Under the pieces are notes generated by a model. That model was given only the letters and a program-made list of their open reading frames with translations. It had not been told where the DNA came from and made no database searches. DNA of 64,000 nt from Bacteroidales bacterium. GTDB taxonomy: Bacteria > Bacteroidota > Bacteroidia > Bacteroidales > UBA12077. The stretch covers positions 186,001 through 250,000 of the forward strand of contig JAEINU010000003.1 in the NCBI GenBank assembly GCA_016342685.1. The letters are read 5' to 3'. Shown here piece by piece: positions 56,469-61,618 of this stretch (position 1 is the first letter of the stretch; each line of letters begins with the position of its first letter). Made by a program: the position numbers and the translations under genes.

Positions 56469-56849
56469 TTAGTTCCAGCTATTATATTCTTTGAAATCAA
56501 TAAAGACTTCGCTTGTTTTGTTTTCATTGACAATGAACTTTCCTTTAATCGATTTTCCAGGTTCACCATCGTAGGAATAAATTTTTGCTTCGAAGTCGTG
56601 TACTCCAATATTTAACTTCTTTTGAAGTCTTTCTTTTATACTTATTGATTGCTTTAGTTCTTCCTCTTTTTCATTTAATGATCCAATTTTTGCGCCATCA
56701 ATATAAATGTCTACATCAAAAGAACTATTTAAAATTGATTGATTCGACTCAAAACTCACTTCTCCAATCTTTTGCTCAACCTGTTCGTCCATCTCACAGC
56801 TAAGAAGCAGAGTTATAAGCATTATGCCTATAAATTTTTCAGGTTTCAT
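56469..56849 (-). CDS. Small lipoprotein of unknown function
   Basis: 126 residues with a lipoprotein signal (MKPEKFIGIMLITLLLSC; lipobox LLSC). The mature part has a beta-sandwich pattern (SFDVDIYIDGAKIGSLN, VHDFEAKIYSYDGEPGKSI, SEVFIDFKEY). No known family is recognised. It lies 70 bases upstream of the TauE-like gene start on the same strand. Confidence 0.75.
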   Translation of the reverse strand: MKPEKFIGIMLITLLLSCEMDEQVEQKIGEVSFESNQSILNSSFDVDIYIDGAKIGSLNEKEEELKQSISIKERLQKKLNIGVHDFEAKIYSYDGEPGKSIKGKFIVNENKTSEVFIDFKEYNSWN

Positions 56850-56952
56850 GTTTATGCGTTTTTAATTTATATTTATAAGATGATTTTTTGTTATAAAAAG
56901 TTGCTTGTACATTAATCAATCTTGCTAACAAATTATAAACACCATTAAAAGC

Positions 56953-58359
56953 ATGACAAAATTTAAAGATAAAATAGTCCTAATAACCGGAGGCACATCA
57001 GAAATTATAAAATTGCAAAGAGAGTTCTTTTTAGGCAATAAAACGAAATCAGTAAAATTTCGATTAGAGCAATTAAAACGTTTTCGTCATATTTTGAAGG
57101 AAAATGAAGCACTTCTTTACGATGCTATTTATGCTGATTTTGGAAAATCTGTTTTTGAAACTTACGAAACAGAATTGGTACTAATTTATCACGAAATTAA
57201 TCAGGCAATTAAAAAGGTAAAGCAATGGAGTAAACCTAAAAAAGTACGCACGAACTTAGCTAACTTCCCCGGAAAAAGCCGAATTTATTCAGAGCCATTT
57301 GGTAATACTTTAGTTGTAGGCGCATGGAATTACCCATATCAACTTACCTTGGTTCCTGTTGTTTCTGCAATTGCGGCAGGCAATACGGTGGTAATAAAAC
57401 CTAGCGAGTTAGCCTCACATACATCGGCCATAATGGCTAAATTAATAAATGAAAATTTTCCAAAGGATTTTTTATATGTTCAGGAAGGTGGTGTTTCAGA
57501 AACAACAGATTTGTTAAATCAGAAATTCGATAAAATATTTTTTACAGGAAGCACAAGGGTAGGGCGAATTGTATATGAAGCAGCGGCTAAGAATTTAACT
57601 CCTGTTACATTAGAGTTGGGAGGCAAGAGTCCAAGCTTTGTATTTCCTGATGCAGACTTAAAAATGACAGCGAAAAGAATTGCGTGGGGCAAATTCTTAA
57701 ATGCAGGACAAACTTGTGTTGCTCCGGATTACGTTTTAGTTCATTCCGATGTAAAAGATCGATTTTTAGAAGAACTAAAAAATCAGATTTTGCAAATTCA
57801 AGGCGAAGATCCAAAAGGGTGTGAGTCTTATGTCCGAATAATTAACAAACAAAATTTCGATCGATTATCAGAATTAATAGATCCGGATAAGATTTACTTT
57901 GGAGGCGAAACTTCTGTTGAGTATTTGCATATTAATCCAACTGTGTTGCAGAATGTTACTTTTAACGATAAAGTAATGGAAGAAGAGATATTTGGACCAA
58001 TTCTTCCCATAATAGAATTCAACGATCTTGAAGAAATAATAACTGATGTAAAAAGAAGACCCAAGCCATTGGCACTTTATGTGTTTACCAAAAAGGAAAG
58101 TATAAAGAGAAAGATTTTGAATGAAGTATCATTTGGTGGAGGTTGTGTGAACGATACGATTATGCATCTGTCAAATCCAAAATTACCTTTTGGGGGAGTA
58201 GGATCAAGTGGAATGGGAAATTATCATGGAAAGATGGGCTTTGATTGTTTTAGTCACAAAAAAAGTGTTCTGCATAAAGGAATCTGGTTCGAACCATTTT
58301 TAAAGTATAAGCCATACACAAATCTTAATAAGAAAATTTTGAAGTGGATTGTTGAGTAA
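56953..58359 (+). CDS. Aldehyde dehydrogenase (class 3 type) with SDR-like N-terminus
   Basis: 468 residues. Class-3 aldehyde dehydrogenases oxidise medium-chain aldehydes with NAD(P). The catalytic Cys lies in FLNAGQTCVAPDY (about residue 256), the general base Glu in LELGGKSP, and VVGAWNYPYQ is the cofactor-side signature. The C-terminal membrane-associating LNKKILKWIVE fits class 3. Residues 1-16 (MTKFKDKIVLITGGTS) do not belong to this family: they read like the first beta strand and TGxxxGxG start of a short-chain dehydrogenase. The real family start begins at residue 17 (EIIKLQREFFLGN). A deletion may have joined two adjacent genes. It is monocistronic. Confidence 0.9.
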   Translation: MTKFKDKIVLITGGTSEIIKLQREFFLGNKTKSVKFRLEQLKRFRHILKENEALLYDAIYADFGKSVFETYETELVLIYHEINQAIKKVKQWSKPKKVRTNLANFPGKSRIYSEPFGNTLVVGAWNYPYQLTLVPVVSAIAAGNTVVIKPSELASHTSAIMAKLINENFPKDFLYVQEGGVSETTDLLNQKFDKIFFTGSTRVGRIVYEAAAKNLTPVTLELGGKSPSFVFPDADLKMTAKRIAWGKFLNAGQTCVAPDYVLVHSDVKDRFLEELKNQILQIQGEDPKGCESYVRIINKQNFDRLSELIDPDKIYFGGETSVEYLHINPTVLQNVTFNDKVMEEEIFGPILPIIEFNDLEEIITDVKRRPKPLALYVFTKKESIKRKILNEVSFGGGCVNDTIMHLSNPKLPFGGVGSSGMGNYHGKMGFDCFSHKKSVLHKGIWFEPFLKYKPYTNLNKKILKWIVE

Positions 58360-58447: not shown

Positions 58448-59431
58448 TTGTATAAATATGAATATTTCAAAATAGTTTTTTTAGTCATTATATCTATCCA
58501 ATTAGTTTCATGTAATGAGGAGATCTTATCAGATGATAAAAAAGAACCAGATTACTCAAACTCAGATTATTGGGCTTCTTTGCCAGAATCAATAGAAAAA
58601 GATGTTGATGTTTTTTTTGTGTACCCGACTTTATTTGGTGGTACAGGGAAAATGAATATGGATATAACCAATGATGAAATGAGAATGCGTGTGCAATCGG
58701 TACTTTTAAAACAAAGTTCTGTTTTTAATACTGATTGCAATATTTATGCGCCCTATTATCGTCAAATGGCAATGGATGGTTTAACAATGGATCAAAGTGA
58801 AAGAGAAATTTATTTTAGAATTGGTTTGGATGATATTGAAAAAGCATTCGATTACTATATTAATCATTTAAACAATGGTCGTCCATTTATTTTGGCAGGA
58901 CATAGTCAGGGCTCGCAAGTACTAATCAATTTATTGAAAAGTAGATTTAACAAGCCTGAATTAATGGATAAACTGGTTGCTGCTTATTTAATCGGATACT
59001 CATTAACCGACAACGACTTGATGCAATGCAATTGGTTGAAAATTGCACAAACATCCGATGATACGGGGGTAATAATCACATACAATACGCAATCGGCAAA
59101 TGCTGAAGGTTCTCCTGTTTTATTAGCGAATGCAAAATGTGTTAATCCGCTTAATTGGAAAAACAATTTGGAATATGCACCAAAAGAAATGCACTTAGGT
59201 GCTGTTTTTTTTAAAGATAATGGAGAAGTTGATTCAACTGTTTTTCAATTCACCGATGCTTGGATTGACGAAAATGGAGCTCTAGTTCCCGGGCTTATAA
59301 ATAGCGATTTATATAGCACTTCGGATTTTCCTGAAGGTGTTTATCATAAATATGATTACAGTTTTTTCTACAATAATTTGAAGCAAAATGCAGGTGATAG
59401 AATTAAGGCTTATTTTAACAAAAACAAATAA
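58448..59431 (+). CDS. DUF3089 lipoprotein, alpha/beta-hydrolase fold
   Basis: 327 residues with a lipoprotein signal (lipobox QLVSC). The mature part is DUF3089: VDVFFVYPTLFGG near residue 50, the nucleophile elbow LAGHSQGSQV, and CVNPLNW. The family is probably an esterase or lipase of unknown substrate. The only start in this frame is TTG at 58448. A nearby ATG at 58458 is one base out of frame; one more A in the run at 58469-58472 would give the natural start MNISKIVFLVIIS. The start is therefore uncertain: either a TTG start or a 1-base deletion. Confidence 0.8.
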   Translation: MYKYEYFKIVFLVIISIQLVSCNEEILSDDKKEPDYSNSDYWASLPESIEKDVDVFFVYPTLFGGTGKMNMDITNDEMRMRVQSVLLKQSSVFNTDCNIYAPYYRQMAMDGLTMDQSEREIYFRIGLDDIEKAFDYYINHLNNGRPFILAGHSQGSQVLINLLKSRFNKPELMDKLVAAYLIGYSLTDNDLMQCNWLKIAQTSDDTGVIITYNTQSANAEGSPVLLANAKCVNPLNWKNNLEYAPKEMHLGAVFFKDNGEVDSTVFQFTDAWIDENGALVPGLINSDLYSTSDFPEGVYHKYDYSFFYNNLKQNAGDRIKAYFNKNK

Positions 59432-59524: not shown

Positions 59525-61618
59525 TTATTTCAATCCGTTTCTTTCTAGGAAAGCATCTAATTGAGGTTCCATTCCACGGAATTTTTTATAAAGATCCATT
59601 GCAGGTTCTGTATTTCCTCTTGAAAGCACATTATCTCTGAAAGATGCAGCAGTTTCTTGGTCGAACAAACCTTTTTCTTTAAATACACTAAAAGCATCAG
59701 CGTCTAATACTTGTGCCCATTGGTAGCTGTAGTATCCCGAAGAATATCCACCACCAAAAACATGTCCAAAATAAGTACTTCTATAACGAACAATGATTTC
59801 TGGAATCATTCCAATTTTTGACATTACATCATTTTCGAATTGTGTTGCATCGTGTTCTTCAACTTCGTTAATTGTATACCAATTCATGTCTAATAATGCA
59901 GCCGATGTATATTCTAAAACTGTAAAGCCTTTATTAAATAGACCACTGTTAGATATTTTTGCAATTAACTCATCAGGAATAACTTCACCAGTTTCGTAAT
60001 GCTTAGCATACATTCTCATAACTTCTGGTTCAGCAGCCCAGTTTTCCATTACTTGAGAAGGTAGTTCAACAAAATCTCTTGTTACAGATGTTCCCGACAA
60101 CGAATGGTATTTACATTTCGAAAATAATCCGTGTAATGCATGTCCAAACTCGTGGAAAGTTGTGCTAACCTCGTCGAAAGATAATAATGCTGGATTATCA
60201 CCAACAGGAGCCGTATAGTTAAAACAAGTTGTAATAATAGGATCAACACCTTCAGATTGTTTTCTGAATGGTTCCATCCATGCTCCACTAATTTTACTTG
60301 CACGTGGAAACCAATCCATATAAAGAATTCCTAAGAATGATCCATCAGGATTTTGCACTTCGAATACTTCAACATCTTCGTGGTATTTAGGAACATCAAA
60401 TCTTTCAACAAATTTCAATCCCCATAACTTAGTAGCAACTTCAAAAGCACCGTTACGCACATTGTTTTTTTCAAAATAAGGGCGAAGCATTTCTTCGTCT
60501 AAAGCATATTTTTGTTTACGCAATTTTTCTGCATAATACCACCAGTCCCAATGTGCTAGTTTAAAGTTCCCACCTTCGCGGTCGATCATTTTTTGTAATT
60601 CGTTAGCTTCTTTCTTTGCAATAGGAAGAGCAGCATCCCAAACCTTGTTTAAAAAACTGAAAACAGTTTCAGGATTCTTAGCCATGTTAACATCTAAAAC
60701 ATATTCAGAATAGTTTTTAAATCCAAACAAATGAGCTTTCTCAGCACTTAAAGCAGTTATTTTAGAAACTATTTTTTTATTATCATATTCGTTGTCGTTA
60801 TCGCCACGCATAATATAAGCAGTGTGTAACTTCTGACGCAATTCTCTATTCTTAGCATAAGTTAAGAAAGGAAGCATACTTGGTTTCTGTGTTGTGAAAA
60901 TCCATTTACCTTCCATTCCTGCAGCTTTTGCAGCTTCTGCAGCACCTTGAATAACAGATTCTGGTAATCCTGCTAAGTCAGCTTCTTTTTCGATAATTAA
61001 TTTAAAGTTATTGGTTTCAGCCAAAATGTTATTACCGAATTTTAAAGCAAGTACCGAAAGTTCAGAATTAATTTCTCTTAGTTTCGCTTGTTTCTCTTCA
61101 TCAAGATTAGCACCACCACGTTCGAAGTTCTTATATGTAACTTCTAATAAACGAGCTTGTTCTGGAGTTAATTCAAGTTCTGTTCTTTTTTCGTAAACAG
61201 CTTTAACTTTTTTAAACAACTTCATGTTTAAAGAAATATCATCGCTATGTGCCGATGTAAGAGGAGCAGTTTCTTGCGCAACTTTTTGCATTTCGTCATT
61301 TGTTGAAGTATTATTTAAATTCATAAATGTATACTCAACTTGTGTAAGAAGTTTACCACTAAATTCTAAAGCTTCAATAGTATTTTCAAAAGTTGGAAGC
61401 TCTGGATTATTAACTATAGCTACAATTTCTTCATCGTGCACCTTTATTGCTTCTATGAAAGCAGGAACAAAATGCTCAACTTTAATTAATTCAAACGGAG
61501 GAACTCCATGTGGAGTGTCAAATTTTTTCAATAATGGATTTTCCATTTTTTCTGAATTTACGGTACACGATGCTAGGATTATTCCAAGGGCAAGTACCAT
61601 TAATGTTACTTTTTTCAC
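59525..61618 (-). CDS. dcp: M3 family peptidyl-dipeptidase, lipoprotein
   Basis: 697 residues of the M3 thimet family; Dcp removes C-terminal dipeptides. The zinc motif is HEFGHALHGLF at about residue 486, with the third ligand Glu in the following helix. GGYSSGYYSYQWAQ is the C-terminal substrate-binding signature. It begins with a lipoprotein signal (lipobox LASC), so it works in the envelope. The start codon is GTG at 61618; the first ATG would remove the Lys-Lys of the signal. Confidence 0.93.
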   Translation of the reverse strand: MKKVTLMVLALGIILASCTVNSEKMENPLLKKFDTPHGVPPFELIKVEHFVPAFIEAIKVHDEEIVAIVNNPELPTFENTIEALEFSGKLLTQVEYTFMNLNNTSTNDEMQKVAQETAPLTSAHSDDISLNMKLFKKVKAVYEKRTELELTPEQARLLEVTYKNFERGGANLDEEKQAKLREINSELSVLALKFGNNILAETNNFKLIIEKEADLAGLPESVIQGAAEAAKAAGMEGKWIFTTQKPSMLPFLTYAKNRELRQKLHTAYIMRGDNDNEYDNKKIVSKITALSAEKAHLFGFKNYSEYVLDVNMAKNPETVFSFLNKVWDAALPIAKKEANELQKMIDREGGNFKLAHWDWWYYAEKLRKQKYALDEEMLRPYFEKNNVRNGAFEVATKLWGLKFVERFDVPKYHEDVEVFEVQNPDGSFLGILYMDWFPRASKISGAWMEPFRKQSEGVDPIITTCFNYTAPVGDNPALLSFDEVSTTFHEFGHALHGLFSKCKYHSLSGTSVTRDFVELPSQVMENWAAEPEVMRMYAKHYETGEVIPDELIAKISNSGLFNKGFTVLEYTSAALLDMNWYTINEVEEHDATQFENDVMSKIGMIPEIIVRYRSTYFGHVFGGGYSSGYYSYQWAQVLDADAFSVFKEKGLFDQETAASFRDNVLSRGNTEPAMDLYKKFRGMEPQLDAFLERNGLK

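Follow-up and report, generated by a model that had tools for sequence, protein, structure and literature searches.

The aldehyde dehydrogenase (ALDH) gene at 56953-58359 (+ strand) of the window, that is, of the whole 64,000-nt stretch of DNA that was analysed, begins with the start of another gene. We consider it very likely (probability about 0.92) that a deletion of ~780 bases removed the rest of an upstream short-chain dehydrogenase (SDR) gene and fused its start to the ALDH. Relatives kept the two genes intact and in order, the leader in front of the fusion was homologous to theirs, neighbouring genes were held in common, and both the SDR and the ALDH's own start codon were absent. Among the genomes compared, one per species, the fusion is known from one, represented by a single assembly.

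The fusion ORF encoded 468 amino acids with the N-terminus MTKFKDKIVLITGGTSEIIKLQREFF, its frame was closed 8 codons upstream of the ATG at 56953, and this one open frame contained parts of both genes. Its first 14 codons (MTKFKDKIVLITGG; 56953-56994, + strand) stopped inside the TGxxxGxG loop and specified the start of the G005 SDR (14/14 residues identical, with 7 synonymous codon differences and 0 replacements), compared to 1-5 replacements against each of the remaining six SDR starts in the genus. Two junction codons of ambiguous origin followed (ACA TCA, encoding T15 and S16; 56995-57000, + strand), and then the body of an ALDH3-type enzyme (57001-58359, + strand), which began at the residue matching E5 of its orthologues. 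The first-pass annotation had located this hybrid start correctly (56953-57060); its assignment of the first 16 residues to the SDR held for residues 1-14, residues 15-16 being ambiguous. SDRs are marked by the motifs TGxxxGxG, NNAG and YxxxK. This set was not found in the window protein (the product of the fusion ORF), which retained the TGG of the TGxxxGxG loop and no later SDR part, so SDR activity would not be expected; Pfam reported no SDR model for the protein at E ≤ 0.001.

Orthologues of the ALDH were searched for at E ≤ 1e-100 in 59 genomes (own genome included) and then in 20 genomes of the genus, six of which had one (own, G010, G016, G015, G017 and G005); the five others were 71-76% identical to the window protein. 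As the first-pass annotation had anticipated, an intact SDR gene stood directly upstream of the ALDH in four of these five (G010, G016, G015 and G005), on the same strand and encoding 268-270 amino acids. The two genes were thus separate and intact there, with 6 nt (G016), 8 nt (G010) or 12 nt (G015 and G005) from the SDR stop to the ALDH ATG. All five relatives began their ALDH 4 residues ahead of a conserved EII/EIV, so the start seen in the window was unique among the six orthologues, and the hybrid N-terminus recurred in 0/5. The resemblance of the 14-codon stub to an SDR is not a matter of chance, because four relatives had that same SDR immediately in front of their orthologous ALDH, and the 5' flank aligned too. 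This flank, the intergenic leader at 56850-56952 (+ strand), was homologous to the SDR leaders of relatives in a MAFFT alignment of 9 leaders, with TTATATTTATAAGATG (56867-56882) and GTTGCTT (56900-56906) invariant in 9/9; it is presumed to be the promoter region.

The surroundings were compared using nine gene probes. To the left, a divergent small gene at 56469-56849 (- strand; MKPEKFIGIM...), here called lipoP, adjoined the SDR or the ALDH in the own genome and in G010, G016, G015, G017, G011, G013, G005 and G002, and is conserved to the left of the SDR in relatives. It had no Pfam match, and we read it as a putative lipoprotein gene from its LLSC motif. The order in the window was GNAT, TauE, lipoP, ALDH, DUF3089, M3, TruA, and that in G010 was GNAT, TauE, lipoP, SDR, ALDH, M3, TruA. 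G015 had lipoP, SDR, ALDH, M3, TruA (GNAT and TauE fell outside the stretch read), G016 had GNAT, TauE, lipoP, SDR, ALDH, and G017 had GNAT, TauE, lipoP, ALDH, TruA. The M3 peptidase gene (59525-61618, - strand) was a right neighbour common to G010, G015, G011 and G002. The right side of the locus was variable: M3 did not occur in the sequence read for G016 and G017, and the window had an additional DUF3089 gene (58448-59431, + strand) between ALDH and M3 that was missing from what was read around the locus in G010, G015, G016 and G017.

Measured on the G016, G015 and G005 templates, the missing stretch, which opens with SDR codon 15 and ends with ALDH codon 2, was 783 nt; it was 785 nt on the template of G010, where the SDR and ALDH genes lie in different frames. 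The earlier proposal that all but the first 48 bases of the SDR gene had been deleted in frame was thus borne out as an in-frame deletion of ~783 nt, but the securely kept part is 14 codons and the ALDH start codon was lost too. When a single deletion was modelled, the first 90 nt were best matched with 41 nt of SDR kept on the G005 (72/90) and G015 (70/90) templates, with 41-47 nt kept on G010 (63/90), and equally with 47, 62 or 63 nt kept on G016, the least similar template (59/90). Codons 15-16 had three candidate sources: ALDH codons 3-4, which read ACATTA in G015 and G005; SDR codons 15-16, which encode A-A or A-T in 7/7 SDRs of the genus and A-S in 5/5 more distant ones; and the 3' end of the SDR gene. 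Because of these three possible sources, we place the junction somewhere between codons 14 and 17. The microhomology suggested for it was not seen, as runs of identical bases shared by the SDR and ALDH genes of each of four relatives were no longer than 3 in the fitted register.

The third of these sources underlies the most serious competitor to a single deletion, less probable than it but of real weight, in which the event had two steps: one deletion would have brought SDR codon 14 up against the final SDR codons (ACATCAGAAAT), which share the frame of the ALDH, and a later short deletion between GAAAT repeats would have taken the ALDH start codon. ACATCAGAAAT matched the SDR 3' end exactly over 11 nt in G010 and over 10 nt in G013, lengths reached by 3 and 12 of 1000 shuffles with seven relatives tried, which counts against a single event, and the ALDH frame behind ACATCAGAAAT was open in G010. 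However, the longest exact match in the other five of the seven relatives was 6-8 nt, reached by 37-492 of 1000 shuffles, and ALDH codons 3-5 of G015 and G005 (ACATTAGAA) account for the same bases almost as well in one event, whereas the alternative needs two. Two steps may have been involved, but on the bases at the junction we prefer one deletion.

According to the single-deletion reading, the ancestor would have had a two-gene unit, with an HSD17B11/13-like SDR followed 6-12 nt on by an ALDH3-type ALDH. An in-frame deletion of ~783 nt would have taken the SDR from codon 15 to its end, the stop codon, the gap and the first ALDH codons including the ATG. The ALDH would now be translated from the SDR start codon, with a short N-terminal tail made of 14 SDR residues, and would have moved from second to first gene, its gain being the SDR start codon. 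We infer that the protein is expressed from 56953 and that the tail is harmless and functionless. Since the ALDH ATG lies so close behind the SDR stop in relatives, as the second gene of a pair, its promoter was likely not newly captured; the ALDH was probably transcribed from the SDR promoter before the deletion, and what changed would be the translation start and the gene order. The earlier claim that the ALDH now uses the promoter and start of the SDR therefore appears sound for the start, but probably not as a case of promoter capture.

A second alternative holds that the stub is untranslated, the ALDH being initiated at the TTG at 57013, or else at a non-canonical start, with the frame in front of it open by chance. 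Within codons 1-30 of the fusion ORF, the only ATG, GTG or TTG codons were the ATG at 56953 and the TTG at codon 21 (57013-57015, + strand); among non-standard codons, ATA occurred at codons 8, 11 and 19 and ATT at codon 18, so that ATT and ATA were available at codons 18-19. In an AlphaFold prediction (29 sequences; mean pLDDT 77.9), residues 1-13 scored below 50 and the stub was predicted to be disordered, consistent with this alternative, and the first ALDH helix spanned residues 13-27. The model is only fair, as residues 395-423 and 436-448 were low too. Initiation at the TTG would nevertheless cut into helix 1 and take away part of it, the SDR start and leader were kept, and the 14 codons differed from those of G005 only synonymously. 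We therefore regard an untranslated stub as improbable. The tryptic peptide IVLITGGTSEIIK, predicted for residues 8-20, spans the junction.

Beyond the stub, the ALDH core looked intact from its sequence. Aldedh (PF00171) was the only Pfam match, covering residues 29-439 at 291.6 bits, and the protein carried WNYP at 125, ELGG at 221 and GQTC at 252, which we take to be the catalytic Cys/Glu/Asn motifs; its classification as ALDH3-type rests on the domain together with these motifs. Twelve distinct solved sequences matched it at E ≤ 1e-60, starting at residues 15-23 and ending at 439-465, and all were aldehyde dehydrogenases by their depositors' names, among them a class 3 enzyme (1ad3), a fatty aldehyde dehydrogenase (4qgk), dimeric NADP-preferring ones, and a benzaldehyde and a steroid aldehyde dehydrogenase. 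Every invariant column of the 29-sequence alignment was present in the window protein, necessarily so, as it is itself one of the 29. In comparisons of the own ALDH with relatives, NG86 dN was 0.17-0.21 (five comparisons) and dS was 1.6-3.8 (four comparisons; not computable against G010), and the low dN/dS points to constraint over the whole divergence, not specifically since the fusion.

The intervening DNA was missing from the own genome (G000). A search of every contig gave no SDR orthologue; ten matches were found at 25-32% identity (best E 7e-24), whereas the SDR orthologues of six other genomes of the genus were 79-97% identical to the G015 query. That the SDR is present but was dropped in assembly is very unlikely: the fusion is seen in a single assembly only, but in the fitted register repeats at the junction reached no more than 3 nt in relatives, loss of the ALDH start is unlike a repeat collapse, the contig extends over 622,795 nt, and the SDR orthologue was on no contig of a genome estimated to be 100% complete. 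The least probable alternative, that the stub was acquired by recombination from another SDR gene, could draw on the ten other SDR-like matches in the own genome, but the leader corresponds to the one in front of the neighbouring SDR of relatives, with the same left neighbour beside it, and we give this alternative almost no weight.

Beyond the genus, the SDR-ALDH pair was found in G044, G039 and G042 and at the loci L051 and L053. Among the 42 distinct ALDH loci (duplicates L031, L033 and L034 left out), 9 had a relative of the SDR (E ≤ 1e-5) within the stretch examined. The pair was carried by L013, L014 and L015, from three other families of the order, and by L051 and L053, from two Bacteroidota MAGs, with SDR identities of 48-53%. 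Its occurrence outside the genus at such identities indicates that the pairing is old, older than the genus. As a guess, the pair might convert an alcohol to an acid via the aldehyde. Seven loci at which the tblastn match began before residue 15 (L036, L037, L039, L045, L046, L048 and L057) were considered as further hybrid starts and rejected, the match extending a few codons ahead of the likely Met start; none of the seven had an SDR at E 1e-5.

Within the genus (n = 20; cut-offs 1e-100 for the ALDH and 1e-40 for the SDR), both genes were present in 4 genomes, the SDR only in 3 (G011, G002 and G013), the ALDH only in 2 (own and G017) and neither in 11, with 6 of these 11, and G002, being less than 90% complete. 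In G017 the ALDH had its own ATG, the leader was kept (L005, 1286-1494), and ~110 nt of unalignable DNA replaced the SDR between leader and ALDH. We had likened this stretch by eye to the C-terminal part of the SDR, but dropped the idea because SDR-body alignment scores were, with each of the four templates, no better than those of 200 shuffles, inside whose range they fell. Neither the ALDH tree nor a tree of a peptidase paralogue (18/20 genomes; G002 and G014 had no copy) settled which genome is the sister of the own genome. The ALDH tree grouped G017 with G015 and G005 (support 100/99), apart from the own genome; given this placement and the different footprint, two losses of the SDR in the genus are the simplest account.

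In the three genomes with only the SDR (loci L073, L074 and L075 of G011, G002 and G013), an aldehyde ferredoxin oxidoreductase (AOR) followed it, in the place of the ALDH. AOR and ALDH, two aldehyde oxidisers unrelated to each other, have been swapped in place next to the same SDR. The AOR protein of G013 matched PF02730 and PF01314, a 454-aa part from G011 matched NF007354 far below its cut-off, and the next probed gene beyond the AOR was M3 in G011 and G002 and TruA in G013. More distant AOR paralogues were found in 19/20 genomes of the genus, own included (E ≤ 1e-20), so the swap concerns only this place and this copy of the AOR. Loci L078 and L079 likewise had the SDR followed by an AOR instead of the ALDH. 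Tentatively, the SDR and aldehyde-oxidiser locus might be a remodelling hot spot of the genus, with no fewer than two losses of the SDR (one of them fusing its start to the ALDH) and an in-place replacement of the oxidiser by an unrelated AOR; on this rather doubtful proposal, the SDR start was perhaps favoured by giving the ALDH the translation rate of a first gene.

The locus provides a clean natural example, near base level, of how a deletion can merge both genes of an apparent operon into one hybrid and still keep the downstream enzyme whole, and cautions annotators that an N-terminus can be the fossil of a vanished neighbour. With a second, separate SDR loss and an in-place enzyme swap, the genus adds material on the dismantling of alcohol/aldehyde oxidation pairs. 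Among the matches listed in open-access PMC for SDR, ALDH, AOR and deletion fusions, nothing concerned this locus. Like class 3 and fatty aldehyde dehydrogenases (6k0z, 4qgk and 1ad3), to which it aligned from residue 16-23 to 448-460, the window protein is an ALDH, but unlike them it has a 14-residue SDR-derived tail. By sequence, the intact G015 SDR was closest among solved proteins to HSD17B11 and HSD17B13 (1yb1 and 8g93), of whose kind only the first 14 SDR residues are left in the window.

The fusion belongs to an already described kind, the deletion-born gene fusion. A preprint by Kaul et al. (2026; PMC12803068) describes single ORFs that arise when a genomic deletion fuses portions of two genes, and presents narX of M. 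tuberculosis as consistent with such a fusion within an operon. The present case is like those of the preprint in that a deletion unites parts of two genes in one ORF, and differs from them in that a 14-codon start and a nearly complete enzyme make a changed start, not a new domain combination. In Pseudomonas fluorescens SBW25 (PMC4395868), deletions obtained under laboratory selection fused genes to an upstream gene, in frame for PFLU0183, and a clear rise in transcription was measured for 2/3 fusions. Unlike in those cases, the Bacteroidales ALDH was probably already on the same transcript as the SDR.
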